Source: Streptomyces seoulensis (lineage in GTDB: Bacteria; Actinomycetota; Actinomycetes; Streptomycetales; Streptomycetaceae). From it: DNA of 64,000 bases. Location of the stretch: NCBI RefSeq assembly GCF_022846655.1, contig NZ_AP025667.1, positions 1,649,001 to 1,713,000 of the forward strand, written 5' to 3'. The number at the start of each line of letters is the position of its first letter. Within the stretch, counting starts at the first letter, position 1. Both the position numbers and the translations under genes were made by a program. Below the pieces are notes generated by a model. That model saw nothing but the letters and a program-made list of their open reading frames with translations, did not search any database and had not been told where the DNA came from. Below are positions 2,836 to 29,289 of the stretch, in pieces.

Positions 2836-2848
2836 GAGAATTGGGACT
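2836..2848 (+). promoter_or_regulatory. hisD -10 box, leaderless start
   Basis: GAGAAT at 2836-2841 is followed by 7 nt and then the GTG start at 2849. There is no Shine-Dalgarno sequence before that GTG. Spacing fits transcription starting at or beside the first base of the start codon. Confidence 0.5.
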
Positions 2849-5867: not shown

Positions 5868-5872
5868 ATCCC

Positions 5873-6675: not shown

Positions 6676-6679
6676 GACC

Positions 6680-7405
6680 ATGGCCAAGCTCGAACTGCTC
6701 CCCGCCGTCGACGTCCGCGACGGCCAGGCCGTCCGCCTCGTGCACGGCGAGTCCGGCTCCGAGACCTCCTACGGTTCCCCGCTGGAGGCGGCCCTCGCCT
6801 GGCAGCGCGCGGGCGCCGAGTGGCTGCATCTGGTCGACCTGGACGCCGCGTTCGGCACCGGTGACAACCGGGCGCTGATCGCCGAGGTCGCGGAGGCGAT
6901 GGACATCAAGGTGGAGCTGTCCGGCGGCATCCGCGACGACGACACCCTCGCCGCCGCCCTCGCCACCGGCTGCACCCGCGTCAACCTCGGCACCGCGGCC
7001 CTGGAGACCCCCGAGTGGGTCGCCAAGGTCATCGCCGAGCACGGCGACAAGATCGCGGTCGGCCTCGACGTCCGCGGCACCACGCTGCGCGGCCGGGGCT
7101 GGACCCGCGACGGCGGCGACCTGTACGAGACGCTGGCCCGCCTGGACCGGGAGGGCTGCGCCCGCTACGTCGTCACCGACATCGCCAAGGACGGCACCCT
7201 CCAGGGCCCCAACCTGGAGCTGCTGAAGAACGTCTGCGCGGCCACCGACCGCCCGGTCGTCGCCTCCGGCGGCGTCTCCTCGCTGGACGACCTGCGCGCC
7301 ATCGCCGACCTGGTGCCCGACGGCGTCGAGGGCTCCATCGTCGGCAAGGCGCTGTACGCCAAGGCGTTCACCCTGGAAGAGGCCCTCGCGGCGGTGTCCC
7401 GGTGA
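6680..7405 (+). CDS. priA: Bifunctional HisA/TrpF isomerase PriA
   Basis: This 241-aa TIM barrel isomerises ProFAR to PRFAR in histidine synthesis. In Streptomyces and other actinobacteria the same enzyme also isomerises phosphoribosylanthranilate in tryptophan synthesis, and is named PriA. The catalytic aspartates are visible in [15 protein letters not shown] near residue 11 and [11 protein letters not shown] near 171. The phosphate-binding SGGIRDD and [11 protein letters not shown] motifs are present. No separate trpF occurs in the window although trpE, trpC, trpB and trpA do, which agrees with the dual role. The dual role itself is family knowledge, not visible in the sequence. Confidence 0.93.
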
Positions 7406-7797
7406 GCGACGTCCGCCGGGTGGGCACGGGCGCGCCCTGGGAGGACCAGTTCGGCTACTCCCGCGCCGTGGAGCTGCCGGGCGGCCTGGTACTGGTATCG
7501 GGCTGCACCTCCATCGTGGACGGCCAGATCGCCGGGGGCGGCCCGTACGAGCAGGCCGTCAACGCCTTCGGCGTCGCCCTGAGCGCGCTGGAGCAGGTGG
7601 GCCTCGGCCGTGACGACGTGGTGCGCACCCGTATGTACATCACCCACGCACGGGACGTGGAGGAGGTCGGGCGCGCCCACAAGGAGCTGTTCGACACCGT
7701 CCGGCCCGCCGCATCGATGATCATCGTCTCCGGTTTCGTGGACCCCAGCCTGGTCGTCGAGATCGAGGTGGAGGCGTTCCGAGGAGTGCCCGCATGA
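7402..7797 (+). CDS. RidA family protein
   Basis: This 131-aa protein has the RidA (YjgF/YER057c/UK114) fold, marked by [14 protein letters not shown] near residue 30, [21 protein letters not shown] near 75, and [24 protein letters not shown] at the end (quoted in parts of one segment). RidA enzymes hydrolyse reactive enamine and imine intermediates released by PLP enzymes. The canonical ligand-binding arginine would fall in the RTRMYI segment. The GTG start overlaps the priA stop, and the stop overlaps the hisF ATG, so the gene is locked between two his genes. Its substrate there is not known. Confidence 0.88.
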
Positions 7798-8549
7798 CCC
7801 TGGCCGTACGAGTGATCCCCTGCCTGGACGTGGACAACGGCCGGGTCGTCAAGGGCGTCAACTTCCAGAACCTGCGTGACGCGGGCGACCCGGTGGAGAT
7901 GGCCAAGGTCTACGACGCCGAGGGCGCCGACGAGCTGACCTTCCTGGACATCACCGCCTCCTCCGGCGACCGGGAGACCACCTACGACGTGGTGCGCCGC
8001 ACCGCCGAGCAGGTCTTCATCCCGCTCACCGTGGGCGGCGGCGTCCGCACCGCCGAGGACGTGGACAAGCTGCTGCGCGCGGGCGCCGACAAGGTGGGCG
8101 TCAACACGGCCGCCATCGCCCGCCCCGACCTCATCCGGGAGATCGCCGAGCGGTTCGGCCGCCAGGTGCTGGTCCTCTCGGTGGACGCCCGGCGCACCCC
8201 TTCCGGCTCCTTCGAGGTCACCACCCACGGCGGCCGCAAGGGCACCGGTATCGACGCGGTCGAGTGGGCGCACCGGGCCGCCGAGCTGGGCGCGGGCGAG
8301 ATCCTGCTCAACTCGATGGACGCGGACGGCACCAAGGACGGCTACGACCTCGACATGCTCGCGGCCGTCCGGGAGCACGTCTCCGTCCCGGTGATCGCCT
8401 CGGGCGGCGCGGGCGCGCTCTCGCACTTCGCGCCCGCCGTCGCGGCCGGTGCGGACGCGGTCCTGGCCGCCTCCGTCTTCCACTTCGGCGACCTCCGCAT
8501 CGGCGAGGTCAAGCAGAGCCTGCGCGAGGCCGGCCACCCGGTCCGCTGA
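7794..8549 (+). CDS. hisF: Imidazole glycerol phosphate synthase, cyclase subunit HisF
   Basis: HisF uses ammonia from HisH to cyclise PRFAR to imidazole glycerol phosphate and AICAR. It is a 251-aa TIM barrel of standard length. The two catalytic aspartates sit in [14 protein letters not shown] near residue 11 and VLSVDARR near 130, and the phosphate-binding [12 protein letters not shown] and [12 protein letters not shown] motifs are present. It is the last gene of the his operon and ends 10 nt before a large palindrome. Confidence 0.97.
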
Positions 8550-8559
8550 CACCGCGCAC

Positions 8560-8611
8560 GATACGAAAGGAAAGTTGCGCAAGAAATGTTGTGCAACTTT
8601 CCTTTCGTATC
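8560..8611. promoter_or_regulatory. 52-bp inverted repeat between hisF and arsR-type gene
   Basis: Two perfectly complementary 19-bp arms (8560-8578 and 8593-8611) flank a 14-nt centre. The arms read GATACGAAAGGAAAGTTGC and its reverse complement. Inside are two near-identical half-palindromes, TTGCGCAA at 8575-8582 and TTGTGCAA at 8589-8596, 14 nt apart. It ends 12 nt before the regulator's start codon, so it is a likely autoregulatory operator. As RNA it could also fold and end the his transcript, though no T-run follows. Confidence 0.7.
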
Positions 8612-8623
8612 TACGGTGTGGGC

Positions 8624-9214
8624 ATGCCGGACAAGGAGCGGGACCTCCCGATCACGGACGTGGGCACGCTGAAGGCGCTCGCCCACCCGTTGCGGATGAA
8701 GCTGTACCGCGCGCTGTGCGTCGCCGGCCGGGCGACCGCCTCCCAGCTCGCCGAGCAGGCGGGCGAAGCGGTCTCGCTCGTCAGCTACCACCTGCGCAGG
8801 CTCGCGGAGCACGGGCTCATCGAGGACTCGGCGGCCCAGGGCGCCGACGGCCGCGAGCGCTGGTGGCAACCCGCCTCGGCGGGGATCAGCGTCCGCGACC
8901 GGGACTTCCGGGACGCACCCGAGAAGGCCGCCGCCCACCTGGCGGCCACCCGGCTCTTCCACGAGCAGCGCGCCGAGATGTACCGCCGCTACCTGGACGA
9001 GCGGCCCACCTGGAGCGCCGAGTGGAACGCGGCCGCCCCCGACAGCGAGTCCCTGCTCCGGCTGACCGCCGGGGAGCTGGACGACCTACGCGCGGAACTG
9101 ACCGCGCTGGCCAGGAAGTACGACGAGAAGGGACGGGCCGCCGTGGCCGCCGGAGACACCGAGGGACGCGAACACGTCGCCCTCCACATGTACGGGTTCC
9201 CCTTCCGTGGCTGA
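8624..9214 (+). CDS. ArsR-type winged-helix transcriptional regulator
   Basis: This 196-aa protein has an N-terminal winged helix-turn-helix: ALAHPLRMKLYRAL near residue 16, then ATASQLAEQAGEAVSLVSYH as the recognition region near 38-57, then a wing containing RERWWQP. The C-terminal half is a charged helical region probably used for dimerisation. It lacks the metal-binding ELCVC motif of true ArsR sensors, so it is more likely a small-molecule sensor. Its stop overlaps the exporter start. The 19-bp-arm palindrome just upstream is its probable binding site. Confidence 0.88.
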   Translation: MPDKERDLPITDVGTLKALAHPLRMKLYRALCVAGRATASQLAEQAGEAVSLVSYHLRRLAEHGLIEDSAAQGADGRERWWQPASAGISVRDRDFRDAPEKAAAHLAATRLFHEQRAEMYRRYLDERPTWSAEWNAAAPDSESLLRLTAGELDDLRAELTALARKYDEKGRAAVAAGDTEGREHVALHMYGFPFRG

Positions 9215-10481
9215 GGGGGCCGGCCCGGTGGCCGACACCGCCGTCATACCGCCGACCGTCGCCGACTCCGTCCGGGCGGCCCACCGCGACCCCAACGTGC
9301 TGCGCTGGCTGGGGGCGTACACCGCCTCCATGCTCGGGGACAACGTCTACTACATCGCGCTGTCCTGGGCCGCGGTGCGGGCGGGCAGTCCCTCCGAGGC
9401 CGGAGCGGTGATGGCGGCCAGCGCGGTGCCGCGGGCCGTGCTGCTGCTGGGTGGCGGAGTGATCGCGGACCGGTTCGGGCCGCGCCGGGTGGTCATCGGG
9501 AGCGACGCCGTGCGGTGCGCGGCCGTCCTCGCCGTCGCGGCCCTGCTGTTCGTCACCACGCCCGGACTGTGGCCGCTCGCCGCGCTGGCGCTGGTCTTCG
9601 GCACCGTCGACGCCGTCTTCATGCCCGCCGTGGGCGCGCTCCCGGCCCGGATCACCGCACCCGGCCAGCTCGCCCGCGTCCAGGGTCTGCGCGGGCTCGC
9701 CATCAGGGTCGCCGGTGTCGTCGGCGCCCCGCTCGGCGGGCTCGGCGTGGCCATGGGCGGCGCGGCCGCCGCGTTCGGGCTGGCCGGGCTGCTCATCGCG
9801 CTCTCGCTGCCCCTGCTGATCACGGTACGGCTCAGGCCGCTGCCCGACGGCGAGGCCGCCCGGGAGGCGGGCACCGCCTGGGCCGACCTCGCGGACGGAC
9901 TGCGCCATGTGCGCCGCCACCAGGTCCTCGGCCCGCTGATGCTCGCCATCGCCCTCGGCGACTTCGGCTTCGTCGGCCCGCTCAACGTCGGCCTCACCCT
10001 GCTCGCCGACCGGCGCGGCTGGGGCTCCGCCGGCATGGGCTGGGTGCTCGCGGGGTTCGGTGTCGGCGCGGGCGCGGTCTCGCTGCTGCTCGCCGTACGC
10101 GGCCGGGTCCCGCGCGCCGGGCTGACCGCCGCCTGCTCGATCCTCGCCGCGTCGGTCGCCATCGGCTCCCTCGCCTACGTGCCCCAGCTCGCCGGAGCCG
10201 TCGGCGTGGCCCTGCTGATCGGGCTGCTCGCCGGCCTCAGCGGCGCGATGTGCGGAGCCCTGCTCCAGACCCAGGCCGACCCCGCCTACCTCGGCCGGAT
10301 CACCGCCGTCGCCAGTCTGGTCAGCCTCGGGCTCGCCCCGCTGAGCATGCCGTTCGCCGCCGCCGCGATCGGCGCCTTCGGGCTCGGGCCGGTGTTCGTG
10401 GCCAGCGCCGTGGTGTGCGGGCTCGGCGGGGTCGTCGTGCTGTGCTTCCCGCACCTCAGGCGCGCCGAACTGCCCGCCTGA
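9207..10481 (+). CDS. MFS transporter, probable efflux pump
   Basis: The 424-aa protein has about ten to twelve hydrophobic segments in two halves, with a central charged loop containing RLRPLPDGEAAREAG near residues 207-222. The MFS loop motif appears in degenerate form as GGVIADRFGPRRVVIGSD near 80. The second half carries glycine-rich helices typical of the EntS or enterobactin-exporter-like MFS group. The GTG start overlaps the upstream regulator gene by 8 nt, a common regulator/exporter arrangement. Substrate is unknown. Confidence 0.88.
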   Translation: MAEGAGPVADTAVIPPTVADSVRAAHRDPNVLRWLGAYTASMLGDNVYYIALSWAAVRAGSPSEAGAVMAASAVPRAVLLLGGGVIADRFGPRRVVIGSDAVRCAAVLAVAALLFVTTPGLWPLAALALVFGTVDAVFMPAVGALPARITAPGQLARVQGLRGLAIRVAGVVGAPLGGLGVAMGGAAAAFGLAGLLIALSLPLLITVRLRPLPDGEAAREAGTAWADLADGLRHVRRHQVLGPLMLAIALGDFGFVGPLNVGLTLLADRRGWGSAGMGWVLAGFGVGAGAVSLLLAVRGRVPRAGLTAACSILAASVAIGSLAYVPQLAGAVGVALLIGLLAGLSGAMCGALLQTQADPAYLGRITAVASLVSLGLAPLSMPFAAAAIGAFGLGPVFVASAVVCGLGGVVVLCFPHLRRAELPA

Positions 10482-10485
10482 ACGG

Positions 10486-10884
10486 TCAGTGCAGCCGCTG
10501 GGTCAGTTGCACCAGGTTGCCGACCGTGTCGTCGAACACGGCCGCCAGCACCGGCCCCTGCGCCTGCGGGGGATGGGTGAACCGGACACCGGCGGCGCGC
10601 AGCCGCTCGTACTCCACCCGCATGTCGTCCACCTCGAACACGATGGTCGGCAGGCCCGCCTCGTACAGCGCCGTGCGGTACGGCTCCGCGATGGGGCCCT
10701 CGCCGGGCTCCAGCAGCAACTGGAGGTCCGGCTGGGCGCCCCCGACCGCCCCGACCGTCACGAACAGCACGCCGTCACCGAGATCCACGTGCAGCCGGGT
10801 CTCGAAGCCCAGCACCTCCGTGTAGAAGGCGTGCGCCCGCGCCACGTCGTCCACGTACACCCCGGTCATGGCGACCTTGATCAT
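10486..10884 (-). CDS. VOC (glyoxalase) family protein
   Basis: This 132-aa single-domain protein has the glyoxalase/bleomycin-resistance pattern: a first beta-alpha-beta unit beginning IKVAMTGVYVDDVARAHAFY and a second containing TIVFEVDDMRVEYERL, ending with FDDTVGNLVQL. The final Glu metal ligand usual in this position is Asn or Gln here, so metal binding is uncertain. The ATG at 10884 has a GGGAG site 5 nt upstream; a longer frame exists but is not supported. It lies 16 nt after the next minus-strand gene and is probably cotranscribed with it. Confidence 0.87.
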   Translation of the reverse strand: MIKVAMTGVYVDDVARAHAFYTEVLGFETRLHVDLGDGVLFVTVGAVGGAQPDLQLLLEPGEGPIAEPYRTALYEAGLPTIVFEVDDMRVEYERLRAAGVRFTHPPQAQGPVLAAVFDDTVGNLVQLTQRLH

Positions 10885-10900
10885 GGTGGCTCCCGGTGGG

Positions 10901-11536
10901 TCAGAGGCCCAGCTCACGGCAGTCGTGCAGGGTGGCGATCGCGTCCGCGTCGCCCTCCAGCGCCACCTTGGCCGCGTCCTGCCGCCCGTAGGCGAACATC
11001 AGCAGCTCGGCGGGCTCGCCGGTCGCCGTGACCACCGGGGCGCCCCGGTGCGCGACCACCGTGCGGCCGTCCGGGCGGCGCAGCACCAGCCCGGTCGGCG
11101 CGTGCCGCCCGGTCAGCCGGGCCGTGCGCTCCAGCCGCGACCACAGCACGTCCTGGAACACCGGGTCCAGCTCACGCGGGCTCCACTCCGGCTGTGCGCG
11201 GCGCACGTCCTCGGTGTGGATGAAGAACTCGACGGTGTTGGCCGCCTCGTCCACCTGCTTGAGCCGGAACGGGGAGAACTTCGGCGGACCGGTGCGGATC
11301 AGCCGGATCAGTTCGTCGTAGGGCCTGGCCGCGAACTCGTCCATCACGCGTTCCAGGCGGGAGGCCAGTGGCCTCGCGAGCATCCCGGCCGCCGCGTCCG
11401 GGCGCCGTTCGCGCACCACCACGTGTGCGGCCAGATCACGGGTCGTCCAGCCCTCGCACAGGGTCGGTGCGTCCGGGCCGGCGGTTTCCAAGAGGTCGGC
11501 GAGCAGGAGCCGTTCACGCTTGGCGAAGGTCGACAT
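10901..11536 (-). CDS. TIGR03085-type protein with mycothiol-dependent DinB-like domain
   Basis: This 211-aa protein resembles the TIGR03085 family, which shares the DinB-like four-helix fold of mycothiol-dependent enzymes. The metal-site pattern is visible as LCEGWTTRDLAAHVVVRERR near residues 27-46 and FFIHTEDVRRAQP near 104-116, each contributing histidine. The C-terminal part, from about 150, resembles a sterol-carrier-like domain with VVAHRGAPVVTATGEPAEL. Actinomycetes use mycothiol as their thiol buffer, so a role in thiol-dependent isomerisation or detoxification is plausible but not shown. Confidence 0.82.
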   Translation of the reverse strand: MSTFAKRERLLLADLLETAGPDAPTLCEGWTTRDLAAHVVVRERRPDAAAGMLARPLASRLERVMDEFAARPYDELIRLIRTGPPKFSPFRLKQVDEAANTVEFFIHTEDVRRAQPEWSPRELDPVFQDVLWSRLERTARLTGRHAPTGLVLRRPDGRTVVAHRGAPVVTATGEPAELLMFAYGRQDAAKVALEGDADAIATLHDCRELGL

Positions 11537-11605
11537 GACCTCAGCCTACGGCCACACCCGAGTACCACGCAGCGGACACGGACCGTGACCTGGAGCGCCG
11601 CACGG

Positions 11606-11618
11606 CACAATGGCACCC
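11606..11618 (+). promoter_or_regulatory. hisI -10 box, leaderless start
   Basis: CACAAT at 11606-11611 precedes the ATG at 11619 by 7 nt. A GTGACC at 11585-11590 could be the -35 box, 15 nt upstream. No ribosome site precedes the ATG. A second ATG at 11610 overlaps the -10 box itself, so it cannot be the start if this promoter is used. Confidence 0.5.
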
Positions 11619-11999
11619 ATGACCCGTACGACCGGCAGCCCCCGTCCCAGCGGCCTCGACCCCGAGATCGCCGCCCGCCTCAAGCGCGACCCGGACGGAC
11701 TCGTCCCCGCCGTGGCCCAGCAGTACGACACCGGCGAGGTGCTGATGCTCGGCTGGATGGACGACGAGGCGCTGCACCGCACGCTGACCACCGGCCGCTG
11801 CACGTACTGGTCCCGCAGCCGCCAGGAGTACTGGGTCAAGGGCGACACCTCGGGCCACGTCCAACTGGTGAAGTCCGTCGCGCTGGACTGCGACGCCGAC
11901 ACCCTGCTCGTCAAGGTCGACCAGACCGGCGCGGCCTGCCACACCGGTGACCGCACCTGCTTCGACGCCGACGTGCTGCTGAAGGCCGAGGAGCGGTGA
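11619..11999 (+). CDS. hisI: Phosphoribosyl-AMP cyclohydrolase HisI
   Basis: HisI opens the adenine ring of phosphoribosyl-AMP, the third step of histidine synthesis. The 126-aa protein is the monofunctional form without a HisE domain. The active-site segments are [16 protein letters not shown] near residue 43, [14 protein letters not shown] near 70, [14 protein letters not shown] near 90, and the zinc ligands in [12 protein letters not shown] near 107-118. It is separated from the rest of the his genes and coupled instead to trpE, whose GTG overlaps its stop. The start at 11619 is chosen because of the -10 box 7 nt upstream. Confidence 0.95.
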
Positions 12000-19431: not shown

Positions 19432-20499
19432 ATGGAACTTGCCTACATTCCCAGTCCGTCGCGCGGGGTGCTGTACCTCGGCCCTGTCCCGCTGCGCGGT
19501 TACGCCTTCTGCATCATCATCGGTGTCTTCGTCGCCGTCTGGCTCGGCAACAAGCGCTGGGTAGCGCGGGGCGGACGCCCCGGCACCGTCGCCGACATCG
19601 CGGTGTGGGCCGTCCCCTTCGGCCTCGTCGGCGGCCGGCTCTACCACGTGATCACGGACTATGAGCTGTACTTCAGTCCGGGCCGCGACTGGGTGGACGC
19701 CTTCAAGGTGTGGGAGGGCGGCCTGGGCATCTGGGGCGCCATCGCGCTCGGCGCGGTCGGCGCATGGATCGGTGCCCGGCGCATGGGCGTGGCCCTGCCC
19801 GCCTACGCCGACGCCGTCGCCCCCGGCATCGCTTTCGCGCAGGCCATCGGCCGCTGGGGCAACTGGTTCAACCAGGAGCTGTACGGCCACGAGACGAACC
19901 TGCCCTGGGCCCTGCACATCACCTCCTCCGAGGGCGGCCGGGTGCCGGGTTACTACCACCCGACCTTCCTCTACGAATCCCTGTGGTGCGTGGGTGTCGG
20001 TCTCCTGGTCATCTGGGCCGACCGCCGCTTCAAGCTGGGCCACGGCCGCACCTTCGCGCTGTACGTCGCCGCGTACTGCGCGGGCCGCGCCTGGATCGAG
20101 TACATGCGGGTGGACGACGCCCACCACATCCTGGGTGTCCGGCTGAACGTCTGGACGGCCGTGGTGGTGTTCCTGCTGGCGGTGACCTACCTGGTCCTCT
20201 CCGCACGGCGCCGGCCGGGACGCGAGGCGGTCGTGGAGCCCGGTGTCTCCGACGGTCCGGCCGAGGACGAGGCGGACGCCGCTGACGGTGAGACGAAGGC
20301 CGAGGCGGAGGGCGGGGCCGAGGACGGGGACGGGGCCAAGGTCGACGTGACCAAGGCCGAGAAGGCTGAGAAGCCAGAGAAGGCCGAGAAGCCCGAGCCC
20401 GTGGATTCCCCGGCCGAGGCCGGTGCCGAGGCCGACGCCGAACCCAAGGCCGAGGCCGCCGGGGTCAAGGACACGGCCGAGTCCGGCAAGAAGGGCTGA
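19432..20499 (+). CDS. lgt: Prolipoprotein diacylglyceryl transferase Lgt
   Basis: Lgt transfers diacylglycerol from phosphatidylglycerol to the lipobox cysteine of lipoproteins in the membrane. The first 265 residues hold about seven hydrophobic segments and the family signature IGRWGNWFNQELYG near residue 139. The loop that reads HGGL in E. coli reads WEGGLGIWGA near 94. From about 265 on, the protein has a long charged tail with repeats of the form KAEKAEKPEKAEKPEP and many acidic residues, absent from shorter homologues. Its client may include the LivK lipoprotein encoded in this window. Confidence 0.95.
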   Translation: MELAYIPSPSRGVLYLGPVPLRGYAFCIIIGVFVAVWLGNKRWVARGGRPGTVADIAVWAVPFGLVGGRLYHVITDYELYFSPGRDWVDAFKVWEGGLGIWGAIALGAVGAWIGARRMGVALPAYADAVAPGIAFAQAIGRWGNWFNQELYGHETNLPWALHITSSEGGRVPGYYHPTFLYESLWCVGVGLLVIWADRRFKLGHGRTFALYVAAYCAGRAWIEYMRVDDAHHILGVRLNVWTAVVVFLLAVTYLVLSARRRPGREAVVEPGVSDGPAEDEADAADGETKAEAEGGAEDGDGAKVDVTKAEKAEKPEKAEKPEPVDSPAEAGAEADAEPKAEAAGVKDTAESGKKG

Positions 20500-20524
20500 C
20501 CACAGCCCCGTACGCACGCCGAAG

Positions 20525-20548
20525 GGCGCCCGGAACACTCCGGGCGCC
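20525..20548. terminator. Terminator between convergent lgt and citE-like gene
   Basis: A 10-bp perfect stem (GGCGCCCGGA and complement) with loop ACAC, flanked by AA on one side and TTT on the other. It can serve both converging genes. Confidence 0.75.
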
Positions 20549-20559
20549 TTTCGGCGTGT

Positions 20560-21366
20560 TCAGGCCCCGCGGGCCGTCGACAGGATCCGCTGGGCCTGGG
20601 CCACCGCCGCCGCGTCGATGAAGCGGCCGTCCGGGAGGGCCAGCGCGCCCTGCTCGGCAGCGGCCGCCTTCAGTACCGTCTCGGCCTCCGCCAGCTCCTC
20701 CGGGGTGGGCAGATAGGCCCGCGCGATCACCGGGAGCTGGCGGGGATGGATCGCCGCGCGGCCCACGAAGCCGAGGGCGCGGCCGTGGGCGCAGGACGCG
20801 GCGAGACCGTCCAGGTCCCGTACGTCCGGGTGGACCGACTGGGGCGGCGGGGCCAGTCCGGCCGCGCGGGCGGCCACCACCACCCGCGAGCGGCACCAGT
20901 CCAGGCCCGTGTCGGCCCGTACCCCGAGGTCGGAGCTGAGGTCGGCCTCGCCGAGGGACAGCCCGCGCAGGGCGGGGTGCGCGGTGGCGATGGCGTAGGC
21001 GTGCTCGATGCCGAGGGCGGACTCCAGCAGCGCGTACAGCGGGAGCGCGGTGGCCTCGGCGGTGCGGCGGATCTGCTCGGGCACGGCCACCTTGGGCAGC
21101 CGCAGCCCGGAGGCGCCCGGCAGGTCGGCCAGCGCGGTGAGGTCGGCCGCCGCCCAGGGGCCCTCGGAGCCGTTGAGACGGACGTGGACCGGGACCGGCT
21201 GGGGGTCGGCGAGCCGTTCGGCGGTGGCCGCGCGGGCGTACTCCTTGCGGTCCGGGGCGACCGCGTCCTCCAGGTCGATCACCACCACGTCGGCACCCGC
21301 CACCAGCGCCTTGTCCACCACGTGCGGCCGGTCACCGGGGACGTACAGCCAGGTCAGCGGGGTCAC
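20560..21366 (-). CDS. CitE-like HpcH/HpaI aldolase or lyase
   Basis: This 268-aa protein belongs to the citrate lyase beta (CitE) group, Mg-dependent enzymes acting on CoA thioesters of malate-like acids. Visible motifs are WLYVPGDRP at the start, VVIDLEDAVAPDRK near residue 29, VRLNGSEG near 62, the metal-binding Glu in LYALLESALGIEHA near 112, and LGEADLSSDLG near 137. No other citrate lyase subunits are nearby. It is the last gene of a seven-gene minus-strand operon. Its GTG start overlaps the CoA transferase stop by 4 nt, so the two probably act on the same CoA ester. Confidence 0.88.
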   Translation of the reverse strand: MTPLTWLYVPGDRPHVVDKALVAGADVVVIDLEDAVAPDRKEYARAATAERLADPQPVPVHVRLNGSEGPWAAADLTALADLPGASGLRLPKVAVPEQIRRTAEATALPLYALLESALGIEHAYAIATAHPALRGLSLGEADLSSDLGVRADTGLDWCRSRVVVAARAAGLAPPPQSVHPDVRDLDGLAASCAHGRALGFVGRAAIHPRQLPVIARAYLPTPEELAEAETVLKAAAAEQGALALPDGRFIDAAAVAQAQRILSTARGA

Positions 21367-22577
21367 AGCGCGCCCTCCTCGCGCAGGGCGCCGATCTCGG
21401 CCGGGCCGAGGCCCAGCTCGGTGAGGACCGCGTCGGTGTCGGCGCCGTGTCCGCGCCCGGCCCAGCGGATCGCACCGGGGGTCGCGGAGAGCCGGAAGAG
21501 GACGTTCTGCATGCGCAGCGGGCCCAGCTCGGGGTCGGCCACGGTGGTGACCGTGTCCAGCGCCTGGTACTGCGGGTCGTCCAGCACGTCCCGTACGTCC
21601 TGCACGGGGGCGATGGCCGCCTCCGCCTTCTCGAAGGCGGCCAGCACCTCGTCACGGGGGCGGGCCGCGATCCAGTTGCCGACCGCCTCGTCCAGCTCGT
21701 CGGCGTGCGCGGCCCGCTGCACCCCGGTGGCGAACCAGGGCTCGTCGGTCAGCTCCGGGCGGCCCACCAGGCGCATCACCCGTTCCGCCACCGACTGCGC
21801 CGAGGTGGAGACCGCGACCCAGGCGCCGTCCAGGGTGCGGTAGGTGTTGCGCGGCGCGTTGTTCGCGGACCGGTTGCCGGTGCGTTCCTGGACGTAGCCG
21901 AGCTGGTCGTACCAGGTCGGCTGGGGGCCCAGCACGGCGAGCATCGGCTCGATGATCGCCATGTCCACCACCTGCCCGGTGCCGGTGTGCTGCCGGGCGG
22001 CCAGCGCGGTGAGCACGGCGTACGCGGTGGCCAGGGCGGCGATGGAGTCGGCGAGCCCGAAGGGCGGCAGGGTCGGGGGCGCCTCCGGCTCGCCGGTGAG
22101 GGCGGCGAAGCCGCTCATCGCCTCGGCCAGCGTGCCGAAGCCGGGCCGGTGCGCGTACGGGCCGAACTGGCCGAAGGCCGTGACCCGCGCGAGGACGAGC
22201 CGGGGGTTGGCCGCCGACAGCTCGGGCCAGCCCAGGTCCCACTTCTCCAGGGTGCCGGGCCGGAAGTTCTCGATCACCACGTCGGCGGTGGCGGCGAGCC
22301 TGAGCAGGGTGTCCCGGCCGCCCGGGCGGGACAGGTCGAGGGTGATGGTCCGCTTGTTGCGGCCGAGCACCTTCCACCACAGGCCCACCCCGTCCTTGGC
22401 CGGGCCGTGCCCCCGCGACGGGTCGGGCCGCAGCGGATGCTCCACCTTGATCACCTCGGCGCCGAAGTCACCCAGCATCGTGGCGGCCAGCGGACCGGCG
22501 AACAGGGTGGCCAGGTCCAGCACCCGCAGGCCGTCCAGCGGCGGGCGGGGCGCGTTCTCGGTGCGGTCGGCGCTCAT
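21363..22577 (-). CDS. CaiB/BaiF (class III) CoA transferase
   Basis: The 404-aa protein is a family III CoA transferase. It begins with LDGLRVLDLATLFAGPLAA and shows FGAEVIKVEHP near residue 40, NKRTITLDL near 75, VVIENFRPGTLEKWDLG near 100, and the probable catalytic aspartate in GQVVDMAIIEP near 205. These enzymes move CoA between carboxylic acids. The ATG at 22577 is used because it overlaps the kinase stop by 4 nt and homology starts right after it. Its substrate is unknown; coupling to the CitE-like lyase suggests activation of a dicarboxylic acid. Confidence 0.9.
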   Translation of the reverse strand: MSADRTENAPRPPLDGLRVLDLATLFAGPLAATMLGDFGAEVIKVEHPLRPDPSRGHGPAKDGVGLWWKVLGRNKRTITLDLSRPGGRDTLLRLAATADVVIENFRPGTLEKWDLGWPELSAANPRLVLARVTAFGQFGPYAHRPGFGTLAEAMSGFAALTGEPEAPPTLPPFGLADSIAALATAYAVLTALAARQHTGTGQVVDMAIIEPMLAVLGPQPTWYDQLGYVQERTGNRSANNAPRNTYRTLDGAWVAVSTSAQSVAERVMRLVGRPELTDEPWFATGVQRAAHADELDEAVGNWIAARPRDEVLAAFEKAEAAIAPVQDVRDVLDDPQYQALDTVTTVADPELGPLRMQNVLFRLSATPGAIRWAGRGHGADTDAVLTELGLGPAEIGALREEGAL

Positions 22578-23467
22578 GCGGTGTACTGCGCCTCGATCTC
22601 GGGGCGGTACGGCATCGACGCCGACGCCCCCTCCCGCTGCACCGACAGCGCGGCCGCGGCCGCCGCCCAGGACAGCGCCTCCCGCAGCGGCTTCTCCTCG
22701 GCGACGGCCACCGCGTAGGCACCGGCGAAGGTGTCGCCCGCGCCGGTGGAGTCCACCGCCGCCACCTGGTGCGCGGGCACCGCGAGCGGCTCGGTGTTCC
22801 GGGACACGTACAGGCACCCCGCCTCGCCCAGGGTGAGCACTACCTCCGGCACCAGTTCGAGCAGGCCCACGGCCGCGTCGAGCGGGTCGGTGCGGCCGGT
22901 GAGGGTGACGGCCTCGTACTCGTTGGGGACCAGCACGTCGGTCACGCTCAGCAGCTCCTCCGGCAGCGGCTGGGCGGGGGAGGGGGTGAGCACCGTGCGG
23001 ACGCCGTGCCGCCTGGCCGCCTCCGCGCCCGCGACGACGGCCGCGAGCGGGACCTCCAGTTGCAGCAGCAGCGCGTCGGCGGAGGCGATCAGGCCCTCGT
23101 CGCCGGGGGAGAGGTGGTCGACGGTGCCGTTGGCGCCGGGGACGACGACGATGGAGTTGCCGCCCTCGTCGTCCACCACGATGTGCGCGGTGCCCGACGG
23201 GCCCTCGACCGTGCGCAGGAAGTCGGTGTCCACGCCGGAGTGTTCGAGGTTGTCGCGGAGCCGGGCGCCGTACGCGTCGTTGCCGACCGCGCCGATCAGC
23301 GACACCGTGGCGCCCGCGCGGGCGGCGGCCATCGCCTGGTTGGCGCCCTTGCCGCCGGGGATGGTGCGGAACTCCCGTCCGGTGACGGTCTCGCCGCGCT
23401 GCGGTGCCTTGGCGACATAGGTGACGAGGTCCATGTTCGTGCTGCCGAGCACGACGATGTGGGTCAT
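22574..23467 (-). CDS. PfkB-family sugar kinase, ribokinase-like
   Basis: The 297-aa protein has the ribokinase pattern: VLGSTNMDLVTYV at the start, the PfkB-1 signature with GGKGANQAMAAARAG near residue 38, and the PfkB-2 signature with DSTGAGDTFAGAYA near 240, which holds the catalytic aspartate. It probably phosphorylates ribose, but other furanosides or nucleosides are possible. Its ATG overlaps the stop of the upstream ADP-ribosylglycohydrolase gene by 4 nt, pointing to a pathway in which a ribosyl product is released and then phosphorylated. Confidence 0.9.
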   Translation of the reverse strand: MTHIVVLGSTNMDLVTYVAKAPQRGETVTGREFRTIPGGKGANQAMAAARAGATVSLIGAVGNDAYGARLRDNLEHSGVDTDFLRTVEGPSGTAHIVVDDEGGNSIVVVPGANGTVDHLSPGDEGLIASADALLLQLEVPLAAVVAGAEAARRHGVRTVLTPSPAQPLPEELLSVTDVLVPNEYEAVTLTGRTDPLDAAVGLLELVPEVVLTLGEAGCLYVSRNTEPLAVPAHQVAAVDSTGAGDTFAGAYAVAVAEEKPLREALSWAAAAAALSVQREGASASMPYRPEIEAQYTA

Positions 23468-24828
23468 GGGCGGGTCGCTTCCAGATGGGTGAGTCGGGCG
23501 AGGGTGTCGAAGCCGGTGCCGTCGAAGTCGGCGACCGAGGTGGCGAGCCGGTTCTTCAGCGGGGCCCGCCAGCGCTCGGGCAGTGCGTCGGGGGCGCCCG
23601 CGAGGAGGCCCGCGACGCAGCCGGCCGTCGCGCCGTTGGAATCGGTGTCCCAGCCGCCCGAGACCGCACGGCAGACCGAGCCGGTGAAGTCGCCGTCCGC
23701 GTGGGTGAGCGCGGCGGCGATCAGGGCGGTGTTGGGCAGGGCGTGCACCCAGTGGTGGGTGGGGGCGTACAGGGCGTGCAGTTCGTCCACGACGTCGTCG
23801 AAGTCGGCCCTCTGCTGCGCCAGTCGGACGGCGTGGCCGATGGCGCGGGCCAGCCGGGAGCCGGGCGGGACGACCGTGAGGCCGGTGCGCAGGCAGGCGT
23901 GCACGTCCTTGGTGCCGGCGGACGCGGCGGCGATGACGGCGGCCGCGAACATCGCCGCGTGGACGCCCGTCGAGGTGTGGGTGAGGGCCGCGTCCCGGTG
24001 GGCCTGCGCGGCGGCGGCCGCCGGGTCGCCCGCGTTGGTCCAGCCGTGCACATCGGCCCGGATCAGGGCGCCGATCCACTCGCGGAACGGGTTGCGGTGG
24101 CGGGCGGTGTACGGGGGCTCGACACCGCCGAGGAGGTTGCGCAGGGCGACGCGCTCGGCGGTGAAGGCGCGGCCGGGCGGGAGTTCGTCCAGCCAGAGCC
24201 GGGCCACGTCGGCGGTGGTGAAGGCGCGGCCGTGGCGGCGGAGCAGGAGCAGGCCCAGCAGGGGGTAGTTGAGGTCGTCGTCCTCCGGCATGCCGTCGAT
24301 GTTCTCGGCCAGCGAGGTCGGGGCGGAGCGGCGGTTCCAGGGGTGCCGGGCGAGCAGGTCCTCGGGGACGCCCTTCGCCGTGAACCACGTGGTCAGCGGC
24401 CAGTTTCCGGTGGCGCGGGCGAGGGCGCGGATGCCGTCGAGGGGGAGCTTCTCCACCGGTTTGCCGAGCAGGCAGCCGATGGCCCGGCCGAGCCAGGCGG
24501 CCTCCAGCGCGCGCGGGTCGGGGGCCGTGCGCCCGGTGGGGGAGGCGGGCCAGTCGGGGCACAGGGCCTCGATCCGGTCCAGCGCGGTCGGCTCCAGGTC
24601 CGCCGACTCGCTGGGCAGCTCGGCGAGTTCGTCGAGCAGGTCCTCGGCCAGCAGCCGCAGGTAGCGGGAGACGGGCTCCGGTGAGGCGCCGGCCCGCTCG
24701 GGGGCGTCCGCGCCGCCCGCCGCGCGCCAGCGCGCCTCGATCCGGGCGGCGTTGCGGCCGTCCAGGCGGGCCTGGCGCAGCTCGTGGCCGACCAGGTCCT
24801 CGGGCTGCACCCAGGTCAGTCGGAGCAT
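23464..24828 (-). CDS. ADP-ribosylglycohydrolase family protein, copy A
   Basis: The 454-aa protein has an N-terminal extension of about 120 residues (start LRLTWVQPEDLVGHELRQA) before the all-helical ADP-ribosylglycohydrolase domain. The dimetal motifs are ENIDGMPEDDDLNYPLLG near residue 180 and SGGWDTDSNGATAG near 395; the first departs from the usual TDDT. This is the largest of four adjacent paralogues (23464-28295). Its ATG overlaps the stop of copy B by 13 nt. Substrate is unknown: the family includes protein de-ADP-ribosylases as well as small-molecule hydrolases. Confidence 0.88.
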   Translation of the reverse strand: MLRLTWVQPEDLVGHELRQARLDGRNAARIEARWRAAGGADAPERAGASPEPVSRYLRLLAEDLLDELAELPSESADLEPTALDRIEALCPDWPASPTGRTAPDPRALEAAWLGRAIGCLLGKPVEKLPLDGIRALARATGNWPLTTWFTAKGVPEDLLARHPWNRRSAPTSLAENIDGMPEDDDLNYPLLGLLLLRRHGRAFTTADVARLWLDELPPGRAFTAERVALRNLLGGVEPPYTARHRNPFREWIGALIRADVHGWTNAGDPAAAAAQAHRDAALTHTSTGVHAAMFAAAVIAAASAGTKDVHACLRTGLTVVPPGSRLARAIGHAVRLAQQRADFDDVVDELHALYAPTHHWVHALPNTALIAAALTHADGDFTGSVCRAVSGGWDTDSNGATAGCVAGLLAGAPDALPERWRAPLKNRLATSVADFDGTGFDTLARLTHLEATRP

Positions 24829-26000
24829 GCCGGGCCTCCCAGCGCGGCGAACGCCCGCTCGTGCGCACGGCGCCGCCCGGTGTCCCGTACGAAGACCTCG
24901 CGGGCGACCCCGGCCAGCTCGCGGGCCGGGGCCCACAGGTCCAGCCGGCTCGCCTCGGCCACCGTCTTCGCCCACTCCTCGGGCACCGGCGAGCCGAGCG
25001 CGCCCGCGAGAGCACCGGCCATCGTGGCGATCGAGTCGCAGTCCCGGCCGTAGTTGACCGCGCCCAGCACCGCGTGCCGCGCATCGCCGCCCGCGACCAC
25101 CAGCATGCCGAGGGCGACCGGGAGTTCCTCGATGGAGTGCAGCCGGGAGGGGCGGCGGGCGCCGAGGGAGGGGGCGCGGTAGTCGGGGCCGACCGTGTCG
25201 TACGGGGCGACCGCCTGCCGGAGCGGGGTCAGCGCCGACTCGAAGTCGCCGTACCCGGCGGCCACTTCGCAGACCTTCTCGATCGCCTCGCGGGTGCCGT
25301 CCTTGGCCAGCGCGAGGCAGGCGGCCACCACCGAGTCCGGGGTCGCGCCGGGCGCGCACGCCGCGGCCACGGCCGCCGCGAACACCCCGGCCGCCTCCCG
25401 GCCGTACGAGGACTGGTGGGCGCCCGCCACGTCCAGTGCCTCGGCGTACGCGGCCGCCGGGTTGGCGGCGTTGACCAGGCCGACCGGGGCCATGTACATC
25501 GCCGCCCCGCAGTTGACGATGTTGCCGGTGCCCGCCTCGCGCGGGTCCACGTGCCCGTACGCGATCCGGGCCACGAGCCACTTCTCGGCGAGGAAGATCC
25601 GCTGCAGCGGCAGCGCCTCCGCCTCCAGCTCGGGGATCCAGCGCGGCTCGGTCATCAGGTCCGGAACCAGGTGCTCCGCGACGGCGTACGCGTCGAGGTG
25701 GTCGCGGACGCGGGCGTAGACCCGGATCAGCGCGTGCGTCATCAGGGTGTCGTCGGTGACGTGCCCGTCGCCCTTGTGGTACGGCGCGATCGGGCGGGCG
25801 GTGCGCCAGTCGTCGCCGTTCCAGGGGCCGACGATCCCGTGCACCCGGCCGCCGTGGCGCTCGACGATCTGGTCGGGGCCGTAGCCCTCGACCGGGCCGC
25901 CGAGGGCGTCTCCCACGGCCGCGCCGAGCAGGGCGCCGGTGATCCGCTCGTCCAGGCAGGCCGCGCTCGGACCGGCGATTTCGTCATCTTTGGGCGTCAT
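24816..26000 (-). CDS. ADP-ribosylglycohydrolase family protein, copy B
   Basis: This 394-aa paralogue has the most complete family motifs of the four: GALLGAAVGDALGGPVEGYG near residue 22, the metal-binding TDDT at 82-85, NIVNCGAAMYMAPVG near 168, and NYGRDCDSIATMAGALAG near 315. It should be an active dinuclear-metal (Mg or Mn) glycohydrolase that cleaves an N- or O-glycosidic bond to ribose. It lies 7 nt after copy C in the same transcript. Confidence 0.9.
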   Translation of the reverse strand: MTPKDDEIAGPSAACLDERITGALLGAAVGDALGGPVEGYGPDQIVERHGGRVHGIVGPWNGDDWRTARPIAPYHKGDGHVTDDTLMTHALIRVYARVRDHLDAYAVAEHLVPDLMTEPRWIPELEAEALPLQRIFLAEKWLVARIAYGHVDPREAGTGNIVNCGAAMYMAPVGLVNAANPAAAYAEALDVAGAHQSSYGREAAGVFAAAVAAACAPGATPDSVVAACLALAKDGTREAIEKVCEVAAGYGDFESALTPLRQAVAPYDTVGPDYRAPSLGARRPSRLHSIEELPVALGMLVVAGGDARHAVLGAVNYGRDCDSIATMAGALAGALGSPVPEEWAKTVAEASRLDLWAPARELAGVAREVFVRDTGRRRAHERAFAALGGPACSD

Positions 26001-26007
26001 GCCCGCA

Positions 26008-27120
26008 TCATCCCCCTGGCCGGGTCCGTTGGGCGGCTTCCAGCAGCCCGGCGAGTTCCACCAGGTCGGTGCCGGTCAGCCGGGGCAGCGTGCAGCCGGA
26101 GAGGGTCCGGCAGGAGCGCCGCCACGCCTCCGGCACGCACTCCCCGCCGCCCAGCGCGCCGCAGAGCGCCCCGGCGAGCGCGGGCGCGGAGTCGGCGACG
26201 CGGGACAGGCAGGCGGCGGCCGGCACCGCCTCGGCGATGCGCCCGCCGGCCGCGAGGGTCAGCGCGAGCGCCACGGGGACCGTCTCGGCGGCGGCGATGC
26301 CGTAGCTGTAGACGTGGTCCACGATCTGGTGCTCCAGCAGGGGGACCAGGGCGAACGCGGTGTCGGCGCCGGTCACCAGGGCCAGCGCGTGCCGGGCGTT
26401 GCGGCCGATCTCCGTGCCCTCGGGCAGCTCGTCCAGCGCGGCCGCCACACACGCGTCCGCGCCGGCGCCGGTCAGGGCGGTGGCCAGTGCCGCCGCCATG
26501 GCCCGCGCGCCGTGCACCCCGTCGCCGTCCTGGGTGTAGCGGGCGTCGAACTCGGCGAGGTCGGCCGCGCGTGCCGGGTCGCCGGGGTGGGCGACGGCCA
26601 GCACGCAGGCGCGTACGCAGGCCGCGTCGTCGAAGTAGTGCGGGTTGTCGTGGCCGGTGGCGGGCGGGCGCAGCCCGGCGGCGAGGTTGCCGAGGCCCGC
26701 GCGCACCGAGATCCGGGCGCGCAGGGGCAGTACGGCCGACTCGATCTCCGGCGCGCGCTCGGCCGCCGCGGCGACCTCGGAGGCCACGGCGGTCCAGGTC
26801 AGGTCGATCGCGGCGCGCATGCGGCGGTCCCGGCTGAGGTCGCCCAGGACGTCGTCCCCGGCGCGCAGCACCGCCTCCGCCGCGAACGCCGCCCACTCCG
26901 CGTCGTCGGACGGGCCGAGCCTGAGCGGTTCCGGGGGCTGGTTCAGCGCGATGGGCACGGGCAGCGTGGTGGTGGCGTTCTGCTCGGCGAACGTGTCCAG
27001 CTCCCGCGTGAGCCGTCGCGTCCATTCGGGCATGCGGGCCGCCCGGTGCCGTGCGGCGGGCCATCCGGCCGCGTCCCCGGCGGCGAGCCCGAGCAGCAGT
27101 CCCTCGATCCGCCGGGTCAC
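26008..27120 (-). CDS. ADP-ribosylglycohydrolase-like protein, copy C, altered metal site
   Basis: This 370-aa paralogue begins IEGLLLGLAAGDAAGWPAAR, as the family does, and has SDDAEWAAF near residue 95 where others have TDDTEYA. The C-terminal motif normally reading G-R-D-x-D-S/T is CLSRVADSAPALAG here, so a conserved metal-binding aspartate is lost. It may bind substrate without hydrolysing it, use a changed site, or act as a partner of the other copies. The GTG start overlaps the copy D stop by 4 nt. Confidence 0.83.
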   Translation of the reverse strand: MTRRIEGLLLGLAAGDAAGWPAARHRAARMPEWTRRLTRELDTFAEQNATTTLPVPIALNQPPEPLRLGPSDDAEWAAFAAEAVLRAGDDVLGDLSRDRRMRAAIDLTWTAVASEVAAAAERAPEIESAVLPLRARISVRAGLGNLAAGLRPPATGHDNPHYFDDAACVRACVLAVAHPGDPARAADLAEFDARYTQDGDGVHGARAMAAALATALTGAGADACVAAALDELPEGTEIGRNARHALALVTGADTAFALVPLLEHQIVDHVYSYGIAAAETVPVALALTLAAGGRIAEAVPAAACLSRVADSAPALAGALCGALGGGECVPEAWRRSCRTLSGCTLPRLTGTDLVELAGLLEAAQRTRPGG

Positions 27121-28295
27121 GACGGGATCTCCGCTTCGTCCTCCTGGGCGGCGCCCGCGAGCGGGAACGGCGTCTGCGTGGCCGTACCCGTCAGGGCGAG
27201 CGGTGGCTCACCGGCGGGCACCACGACGGGCCCCGAGAGCGCGAGCCGCACCCCCTCCGGCAGCAGGTCGGGCAGGACCACCCCCTCGCCCCACTTGCCG
27301 CCCTCCTCGGGGGTCAGCAGTTCGGCCACGTCGAGGATGTGGTGGCCGGACATGGCGGGCAGGCAGCGGCCGCGGGCCGGGCCGATGGCCGCGGCCCAGG
27401 CCGCGGGGATGGCACCGACACCGCTGGTGGCACCGGCCAGCGCCCCTGCCACCGCCGCCGTCGTGTCGGCGTCGCGGCCCATGTTGACGGCCGTCAGGAC
27501 CGCTTCGCGGAAGTCGCCGTCGGCGGCCGCGTAGGCGCCGAAGGCGAGGGCGACCGCCTCGGGGGCGAGGTCGGTCCAGGGGTAGCCGCCGATGACCACG
27601 GCGGAGCGCACCGCGCGTTCGCCCCGGTGGGCGACGGCGACCGCGCGGCGCAGGGAGCGGGCGGTCCAGGAGTCGTCGGGCACGGCGGCGAGGGCGGCCG
27701 CGATCACCACGGCCGGCTCCGCGCCCGCCATCGCGGCGGCCACCCCGGCCGCGACCGCCTGACCGCCGTAGATCCCCTCGCCCTCGTGGCTGACCGAGCC
27801 GTCGATCGCCACCAGCCGGGCCGCCTCGGCGGGCCGCCCCGCGGCGAACACCCCGAACGGCGCCGCCCGCATCGCCAGCCCGTCGCTCCAGGCGTGCCGG
27901 TGCTGGGCGGAGATGGGCGCGGCCAGCCCCCGCCGCAGGTTCTCCAGCGTGCCCCGCTCGCTGAAGCCCGCTCCCCGGAAGGGACCCTCGGCCCGGTCCG
28001 CGATCCACTGGTGCCAGGCCGCCTCCACGTGCGCCGGGGTGAGCGCGGAGCCGTGCCGGGCCAGCAGCAGCCCGGAGAAGATCGCGTACTCGGTGTCGTC
28101 CGTGCCGCACGGACGCTCGGTGACGTACCCGGTGATCCGGCCCCAGCGGGCGCGGATCTCGGAGGGCTTCAGGTTCTCGGCCGGGGCGCCCAGCGCGTCC
28201 CCGACGGCCAGGCCGAGCAGCGCGCCGCGCGCCCGCTCACGGAGTCCGGGCCCCGAGGGGGCGGGCAGCGGTGAAGCGGGTGCGATCGATGCCAT
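27117..28295 (-). CDS. ADP-ribosylglycohydrolase family protein, copy D
   Basis: The 392-aa protein is first in the seven-gene operon. It has GALLGLAVGDALGAPAEN near residue 24, the metal motif GTDDTEYAIF at 64-73, GEGIYGGQAVAAG near 178, and NMGRDADTTAAVAGALAG near 282, all consistent with an active enzyme. The C-terminal 60 residues, after EEGGKWGEGVVLPDLLPEG, form an extra segment that is less conserved. The ATG at 28295 has a strong AGGAGG ribosome site 8 nt upstream; a longer frame exists upstream but lacks homology. Confidence 0.9.
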   Translation of the reverse strand: MASIAPASPLPAPSGPGLRERARGALLGLAVGDALGAPAENLKPSEIRARWGRITGYVTERPCGTDDTEYAIFSGLLLARHGSALTPAHVEAAWHQWIADRAEGPFRGAGFSERGTLENLRRGLAAPISAQHRHAWSDGLAMRAAPFGVFAAGRPAEAARLVAIDGSVSHEGEGIYGGQAVAAGVAAAMAGAEPAVVIAAALAAVPDDSWTARSLRRAVAVAHRGERAVRSAVVIGGYPWTDLAPEAVALAFGAYAAADGDFREAVLTAVNMGRDADTTAAVAGALAGATSGVGAIPAAWAAAIGPARGRCLPAMSGHHILDVAELLTPEEGGKWGEGVVLPDLLPEGVRLALSGPVVVPAGEPPLALTGTATQTPFPLAGAAQEDEAEIPS

Positions 28296-28494: not shown

Positions 28495-28526
28495 GGGGGT
28501 CTTCGAAAAATAGAACAGGTCCAAAG

Positions 28527-28545
28527 TTAGCTTTGGCTCAGCTTA
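28527..28545. promoter_or_regulatory. Iron-box-like (DmdR/IdeR) site
   Basis: TTAGCTTTGGCTCAGCTTA matches 15 of 19 positions of the Streptomyces iron box TTAGGTTAGGCTCACCTAA. It lies 12 nt before the transporter ATG. This suggests control by the DtxR-family iron regulator; the comparison was made by eye. Confidence 0.55.
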
Positions 28546-28557
28546 CCGGGGGTCCGT

Positions 28558-29289
28558 ATGGCCATCATCGAAACCGAGGCCGCGCTGCACGAGGCGCACC
28601 GCGACAATCACACGCACCGCGATGTGAACGGCGGCTGGCTGCGCCCCGCCGTCTTCGGCGCGATGGACGGCCTGGTCTCCAACCTCGCCCTGATGACCGG
28701 TGTCGCGGGCGGCTCGGTGAGCCACCAGACGATCGTGATCACGGGCCTCGCCGGGCTCGCGGCCGGTGCCTTCTCGATGGCGGCCGGCGAGTACACCTCC
28801 GTCGCCTCGCAGGCCGAACTCGTCCAGGCCGAGCTGGACGTCGAGCGCCGTGAGCTGCGCAAGCACCCGCAGGCCGAGGAGGACGAGCTGGCCGCGCTGT
28901 ACGCCTCCCGCGGTGTCGAGCCCGCGCTCGCCCGCGAGGTCGCCCGGCAGTTGTCGAAGGACCCCGAGCAGGCCCTGGAGATACACGCCCGGGAGGAGCT
29001 GGGCATCGACCCCGAGGACCTGCCCTCCCCGCTGACCGCCGCCGTCTCCTCCTTCGGCGCCTTCGCCCTGGGGGCCCTGCTCCCCGTGCTGCCCTACCTG
29101 CTGGGCGCCACCGCCCTGTGGCCGGCCGTACTGCTCGCGCTCGCCGGACTGTTCGGCTGTGGCGCGGTGGTGGCCAGGGTGACCGCCCGTAGCTGGTGGT
29201 TCAGCGGACTGCGCCAGCTCGCTCTCGGCGGCGCGGCGGCGGGGGTCACCTTCGCCCTGGGCAGCCTGTTCGGGACCGCTGTGGGATGA
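28558..29289 (+). CDS. VIT1/CCC1 family iron or manganese transporter
   Basis: The 243-aa protein has the VIT pattern: an N-terminal helix with [19 protein letters not shown] near residue 33, then [20 protein letters not shown] near 75. A cytoplasmic metal-binding region of charged helices rich in Glu follows (about 95-155), then three more membrane segments. The family moves Fe(II) or Mn(II) out of the cytosol. The site just upstream resembles an iron box, in keeping with iron control. Confidence 0.9.

Follow-up and report, generated by a model that had tools for sequence, protein, structure and literature searches.

Why would a bacterium keep four genes of the ADP-ribosylglycohydrolase (ARH) family in one operon with a sugar kinase, a coenzyme A (CoA) transferase and a lyase? 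The question arises at positions 20560..28295 of the window, a 64,000-nucleotide stretch of the Streptomyces seoulensis genome (G000:C1:1649001-1713000; the genome is a single contig of 6.54 Mb). The open reading frame list and the sequence place seven genes here, all on the minus strand: ARH1, ARH2, ARH3, ARH4, a PfkB-family kinase of the ribokinase type, a family III CoA transferase and, last, a CitE-like beta-hydroxyacyl-CoA lyase. From ARH1 to the CitE-like gene, their junctions are a 4-nt overlap, a 7-nt gap and overlaps of 13, 4, 4 and 4 nt, exactly as given in the original prediction, which had treated the seven genes as a single unit; that view is supported. On balance, the operon probably serves the catabolism of an imported glycoside, a ribose-type sugar joined to an organic acid, which is cut and of which both halves are used.

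If all seven genes belong to one pathway, as originally proposed, retention of the transferase and lyase beside the hydrolases in other genomes bears on the idea directly. We searched for ARH4, the only hydrolase queried on its own, in 60 genomes (the order sample), 45 of the same genus (the window's genome included) and 15 others. An orthologue was found in 35/45 same-genus genomes and in 0/15 others; the match is a short fragment in G039 and G046 and falls into two pieces in several others, and G022, which has just a paralogue of 47% identity, was scored as lacking the operon. In all 35 operon genomes of the genus, the transferase (at least 78% identity) and the lyase (at least 67%; two pieces in G055) lie beside ARH4 on the same contig. 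The class sample comprised 296 genomes, 268 of them outside the genus. An ARH4 match had to have E below 1e-100 to count as an orthologue; the weaker ARH4-like hits in G079, G109, G178 and G182 were dropped, as were second copies elsewhere. By this measure 25/268 genomes outside the genus carry ARH4, and the CoA transferase is present in 25/25 of these versus 26/243 of the others.

Gene order was compared in named loci, the best 80 from a scan of species genomes with ARH4 as query; the 67 with full flanks were counted, which excluded 13 whose flanks were short. Genes in the compared loci were called by a script of our own that used no annotation. The 67-locus table holds tblastn calls on the operon strand, for which reason L158, with ARH1, ARH2 and transferase on the opposite strand, is scored as transferase-less and as "neither" in the comparison of ARH1/2 with the alpha-amylase-fold protein given below. 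ARH3 and ARH4 are present in 67/67 loci (ARH4 being the query), ARH1 and ARH2 in the same 47, and all four together in each of the 30 Streptomyces loci. Transferase and lyase are both found in 56 loci and both missing from 11. The kinase is present in 46/67; among same-genus loci it is absent in L028, L029, L031 and L033 and present in L030, L032, L034, L035 and L042. The composite order runs LacI regulator, permease, permease, binding protein, ARH1 and ARH2 (optional), ARH3, ARH4, kinase (optional), alpha-amylase/FGE-like protein (optional), transferase and lyase. The operon set is kept much alike in many soil actinobacteria. We conclude that the arrangement is not due to chance, because other genera and families show this order too and because the ratio of nonsynonymous to synonymous substitution rates (dN/dS, NG86) was 0.13-0.43 in 27 operon-gene comparisons with four same-genus relatives (one of the four lacks the kinase, and some comparisons are partial). 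Of the predicted seven-gene set, ARH4, CoA transferase and lyase are neighbours in all operon genomes of the genus and in most named loci, and the kinase is optional. The single-pathway idea survives this check and is partly supported; its substrate is a proposal.

The acid genes could also form a branch of their own, with hydrolases and kinase acting on one substrate and transferase and lyase on another acid under shared regulation; that acid would be imported by a tripartite ATP-independent periplasmic (TRAP) transporter or made inside the cell, or the pair would run in reverse as an apparent malate/citramalate synthase. Indeed, transferases do occur outside ARH loci. We took 28 such loci, 27 of which hold a transferase by gene calls, together with PrpD-like and cyclase genes (14 loci), a lyase (15), TRAP genes (3) or an allantoinase/dihydroorotase-like amidohydrolase (15); a flavoprotein gene belongs to the same setting. 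Thirteen genomes with a seemingly transferase-less ARH locus were searched whole. Ten encode a transferase elsewhere (64-68% identity), where a lyase gene accompanies it within ~4 kb and, in 4/10, a DctM-like gene follows; L149 has a transferase in its ARH locus after all; and the L142 and L158 genomes gave no transferase at E<=1e-110, L158 showing a transferase stretch on the other strand. For the reverse direction, weak synthase activity of Rv2498c with glyoxylate has been described (PMC6689899). Against separate branches stand the presence of the transferase in every other-genus ARH4 genome, in one of them even outside the ARH locus, and the both-or-neither pattern of transferase and lyase in the named loci. 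From these two results we argue that the branches need each other, and we regard their independence as unlikely.

All four hydrolases belong to PF03747 (ARH1, 197.8 bits; ARH2, 117.6; ARH3, 160.8; ARH4, 175.1; gathering cut-off 26.2), and four of the seven matches to this family in the whole genome at E<=0.001 are those of the operon. ARH4 (23464..24828, ATG start) carries a conserved N-terminal extension of ~95 residues in the alignment, the PF03747 match spanning residues 102-410 of a slightly shorter reading. The acidic metal ligands of the family lie in an N-terminal DD and a C-terminal DxD motif; the C-terminal motif of the operon proteins is seen in alignment with DraG. Both motifs are intact in ARH1 (27117..28295, ATG start with AGGAGGG ahead of it; GRDADT in 25/25 rows, TDDT in 24/25 and SDDT in L048), in ARH3 (24816..26000, ATG start; TDDT and GRDxDS in 25/25 rows) and in ARH4 (DDD and DTDS in the window protein and its rows). 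ARH2 (26008..27120, GTG start) retains the N-terminal DD in 22/23 rows, and the first Asp of its C-terminal DxD is replaced in 23/23 (two of them distant). In a quick tree, with long branches flagged, ARH1-4 form four clades across genera (support 80, 100, 100 and 98), and the window paralogues are ~26-34% identical over their longer alignments. These two results rule out a recent tandem duplication, and the tree indicates that the four hydrolases are old and distinct clades. They look like two pairs, ARH1/ARH2 and ARH3/ARH4. The expectation of four paralogues for related substrates gave way to this picture of pairs, in which the ARH2 metal site is degenerate and ARH1/ARH2 are often absent from loci that have an unrelated protein, described below.

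More distant ARH4-like genes were noticed in other sugar ATP-binding cassette (ABC) clusters without acid genes (L036, L063, L064 and L065); in L036 the gene adjoins one that, by eye, resembles a nucleoside hydrolase gene. ARH4 relatives also occur in contigs of metagenome assemblies labelled Trueperaceae and Bacillota (L157 and L168), so that the system may, in whole or in part, extend beyond actinobacteria.

Reversal of ADP-ribosylation is the function for which the family is named: ARH1-4 would free proteins, nucleic acids or antibiotics of ADP-ribose, and the other genes would be passengers. In line with this, the closest solved structure to ARH1 is DraG (2woe, 77.9 bits). By their numbering and gltB-lgt synteny, SCO2028-SCO2031 of Streptomyces coelicolor are probably the same operon, with SCO2028 as the putative ARH1 and SCO2030 as the putative ARH3. 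These consecutive DraG homologues, from a species in which eight DraG/ARH homologues were counted (PMC9411070), are listed as uncharacterized putative ADP-ribosyl hydrolases (PMC9411070, PMC5087735; the excerpt of the latter omits SCO2031), and another ARH-like protein of S. coelicolor, SCO5809, takes ADP-ribose off the phosphate ends of RNA (PMC11833690). However, purified SCO2028 and SCO2030 were inactive on U-alpha-ADPr, the sole substrate reported in the excerpt of PMC13036486. The operon proteins also share PF03747 and, in ARH1, ARH3 and ARH4, the metal motifs with the established ADP-ribosyl hydrolases named DraG, ARH1 and ARH3, yet they stay far below the DraG equivalog TIGR02662 (best 80.1 bits, for ARH1; cut-off 337) and the Tri1 ADP-ribosylarginine hydrolase equivalog NF041672 (best 46.8 bits; cut-off 490), they sit in a carbohydrate-uptake setting, and ARH2 is short of a metal ligand. 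Their genomic linkage is to a sugar ABC importer, a ribokinase and acid enzymes, in a comparison where ADP-ribosyltransferase genes were not searched for as such. No PADLOC model matched the six operon proteins other than the kinase; this speaks against ADP-ribosylation reversal, and a role in anti-phage defence was rejected on the same result. We consider ADP-ribosylation reversal the least probable of the alternatives weighed here.

The sugar released would be ribose. The kinase (22574..23467, ATG start) matches Pfam PfkB with 228 bits and passes the ribokinase equivalog TIGR02152 (309.4 bits; cut-off 299.65), its orthologue in L062 falling just under that cut-off with 298.5 bits. All 15 PDB matches at E<=1e-30 are named ribokinase. 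The kinase results support the original prediction of ribosyl hydrolysis followed by a sugar kinase.

How would the glycoside enter the cell? That the operon includes no transporter or regulator, as originally noted, is correct for the locus; it does not hold for the system. The LacI regulator is present in 43/67 and importer genes in 42/67 named loci, and LacI with a CUT1-type ABC importer (binding protein and two permeases) heads the operon in 37/37 loci outside Streptomyces and in 5/30 within it (the regulator, permease and binding-protein families were checked with Pfam on one locus). When the window genome was searched with the binding protein of another genus, a single match stood out (47% identity, E 6.8e-116, C1:4507488-4508753; next best, 24%). 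This gene and both permease genes lie at G000:C1 4.507-4.511 Mb, 2.8 Mb from the operon, and the three are 62-76% identical to those inside the L123 operon. An orthologue of the binding protein (E<=1e-70) was detected in 26/35 operon-bearing versus 0/10 operon-free same-genus genomes (Fisher 3e-5) and in 0/15 genomes of other genera in the order sample. The importer is physically separate from the operon yet travels with it. In L126 (Streptomyces sp. CB02923), LacI directly precedes ARH1 and importer genes are absent from the locus, as if this form stood between the full operon and that of the window.

An operon that persists without an importer orthologue in 9/35 genomes, and with neither importer nor regulator at the window locus, could instead serve metabolite repair. 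An internal ribosylated side product (e.g., a non-enzymatic or alpha-anomeric riboside) would be destroyed, and the importer would be ancestral and dispensable; the dN/dS values of the operon genes would fit this as well. Retention of the importer elsewhere in the 26 operon-bearing genomes and its linkage to the operon as the rule in other genera argue against repair, which we find quite unlikely.

The remaining two proteins would deal with the acid half. The CoA transferase (21363..22577, ATG start) is a family III enzyme by PF02515 (CoA_transf_3, 412 bits; gathering cut-off 23.3); it fails the succinate--glutarate CoA-transferase model NF052585 (232.7 bits; cut-off 750), and its PDB relatives include 4ed9 and succinate--hydroxymethylglutarate CoA-transferase 9br7. 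The lyase (20560..21366, GTG start) matches PF03328 (HpcH_HpaI) with 115 bits. Its best NCBIfam model is citramalyl-CoA lyase RipC/Ccl (NF038242; 146 bits, below the cut-off of 375), and it fails citrate lyase beta subunit TIGR01588 (129.2 bits; cut-off 443.4). The best solved relatives are 8khl and 9nzb (136.5 bits), followed by Rv2498c (6aq4, 103 bits). Rv2498c cleaves (S)-citramalyl-CoA and (R)-3-hydroxy-3-methylglutaryl-CoA (HMG-CoA), and Pa0883 served as (R)-HMG-CoA lyase in the same study (PMC6689899). Outside ARH loci, the nameable neighbours of the transferases are mostly organic-acid genes, and since the transferase-lyase pair also occurs with TRAP acid-transporter genes, it is suggested to act on an organic acid, which accords with the acid branch originally assigned to the two enzymes. 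The alternative setting itself (PrpD, cyclase, allantoinase-like amidohydrolase and flavoprotein) does not name that acid. A separate cluster of this kind was seen in L060 (G022:C18:15000-34900), from a same-genus genome without the ARH operon, where a transferase (67%) and a lyase (48%) at 5083-11630 have MFS, MmgE/PrpD, cyclase and IclR-like genes as neighbours.

No hydratase was found among the seven genes at 20560-28295, and the combination of transferase, hydratase and lyase that marks the itaconate pathway is therefore not assembled here. Two enzymes would make a full route only for an acid that already bears a beta-hydroxyl. We think that the likeliest class of acid is a branched hydroxy-diacid such as citramalate or 3-hydroxy-3-methylglutarate, because exactly two steps, neither of them a hydration, would make either acid usable and the operon encodes no hydratase. 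Malate would also be chemically compatible, yet no such route is needed for it.

A further protein of the system, with an alpha-amylase fold and an FGE-like part, is nearly exclusive with ARH1/2. Among the 67 named loci, 44 have ARH1/2 only, 19 the alpha-amylase-fold protein only, 3 both and 1 neither, and two Streptomonospora loci, L119 and L146, differ in this way, one with ARH1/2 and the other with the alpha-amylase-fold protein. Foldseek with a model of the protein gave TM-scores of at most ~0.35 by query length among the matches listed, and the fold assignment rests on a different analysis. In L047 (G073:C377), a single reading frame of 996 aa (2648-5638) encodes a fusion of the kinase with the alpha-amylase/FGE-like protein.

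We propose that the operon encodes the intracellular part of a pathway by which an imported glycoside is broken down. The CUT1-type ABC importer would take up a ribose-type furanose conjugated to an organic acid, and the glycosidic bonds of this compound, perhaps in alpha linkage, would be hydrolysed by ARH3 and ARH4 and by ARH1 with its degenerate partner ARH2. Ribokinase would then phosphorylate the ribose, which would enter the pentose-phosphate pathway. The family III CoA transferase would place CoA, probably from succinyl-CoA, on the released hydroxy-acid, and the CitE-like lyase would split the resulting beta-hydroxyacyl-CoA into acetyl-CoA and a 2-oxo or 3-oxo acid. A narrower version can be put forward only tentatively, as a possibility we ourselves doubt: an undescribed pathway in which ARH-family enzymes act as small-molecule glycosidases on an imported alpha-riboside of a branched hydroxy-diacid, with the CoA ester cleaved afterwards. 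ARH1 would work with an obligate degenerate ARH2, replaceable in many lineages by the alpha-amylase-fold/FGE-like fusion, next to the core pair ARH3/ARH4.

Several results weigh against the catabolic pathway. Four hydrolases for one substrate are more than a simple conjugate needs, and no assay on a hydroxy-acid riboside of this kind is known to us. The importer orthologue is absent at E<=1e-70 from the nine operon-bearing genomes mentioned above, and there the substrate must enter otherwise or arise inside. No clear LacI orthologue was found in the window genome (best matches 38-41% among 15), and when 24 ARH1 upstream regions were compared with 17 permease upstream regions, no 10-mer occurred in four or more sequences of both sets, so that co-regulation of operon and importer is unsupported. 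The acid genes do not lie beside the hydrolases in five Nonomuraea loci or in L116, L119, L128, L142 and L148. Replacement of ARH1/2 by the alpha-amylase-fold protein is made less convincing by family f21 (Jiangellaceae by shared contigs), which usually has both (eight loci, two of which appear to coincide with the contigs of L097 and L099). Fisher values overstate independence, because the loci are related by descent. The kinase fails the ribokinase model PRK11142 (NF008353; 270.4 bits, cut-off 341), transferase and lyase stay below every listed NCBIfam equivalog cut-off, and the authors of PMC6689899 caution that bioinformatics alone does not assign function reliably within PF03328.

Around the operon, lgt (19432-20499, plus strand) lies on one side, and on the other are a divergent 243-aa gene (28558-29289) and then gltB, these names being given by eye. 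The nearest named relatives of the locus are from Streptomyces and have these neighbours too. Scans for sigma-70 promoters and for T-run terminators gave no matches at the operon. Folding revealed a stable minus-strand hairpin at 20510..20562 that begins at the stop codon of the CitE-like gene (-41.1 kcal/mol versus -19.6 for shuffled sequences, sd 2.75; z -7.8; 0/200 shuffles as stable); it is probably a terminator without a U run. Between ARH1 and the 243-aa gene, and nearer the latter, lies the near-palindrome CCAAAGCTAACTTTGG (28521-28536), which is also found upstream of ARH1 in L030. It is perhaps an operator of the divergent neighbour.

The operon resembles known systems in part. In the rus ribose-scavenging locus of Bacteroides thetaiotaomicron, an ARH-family gene reportedly stands together with ribokinase genes, a nucleoside hydrolase gene and genes for the uptake of ribose and ribosides. 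Import there is of the TonB/SusCD type, and rus is not known to include a CoA transferase or lyase, whereas the operon system has four paralogues, an acid branch and an ABC importer. We take the B. thetaiotaomicron BT2804 entry to be the rus locus. In the excerpt of PMC10434189, that entry shows a ribokinase and a nucleoside hydrolase, with no ADP-ribosylglycohydrolase named there, and an ADP-ribosylglycohydrolase gene is given for a Prevotella hemin locus. The Pseudomonas aeruginosa itaconate operon ict-ich-ccl, with its IctPQM TRAP transporter, likewise has a CoA transferase and a CitE-family lyase (PMC12599236, PMC12290011), and the separate transferase-lyase pair of the relatives described above adjoins a DctM-like gene in four of its ten short loci. 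In contrast to the itaconate operon, the window operon is without a hydratase, its lyase is below the RipC/Ccl cut-off, and it adds hydrolases, a kinase and the system's sugar importer. SCO2028-SCO2031 are four consecutive DraG homologues (PMC9411070); the excerpts on them treat them as ADP-ribosyl hydrolases and leave kinase, transferase, lyase and importer unmentioned (PMC9411070, PMC5087735, PMC13036486). A literature search, with most subscription journals outside its reach, turned up no publication in which the operon is treated as a pathway.

If the proposed catabolism is true, part of the large, mostly uncharacterized group of "ADP-ribosyl hydrolases" would move from signalling to carbohydrate catabolism; four of the eight DraG/ARH homologues of S. 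coelicolor are probably this operon. The finding would point to a natural conjugate, apparently widespread, in whose use many actinobacteria invest 6 to 12 genes. The unlinked importer offers a direct handle, as the ligand of its binding protein would reveal the substrate of the pathway.

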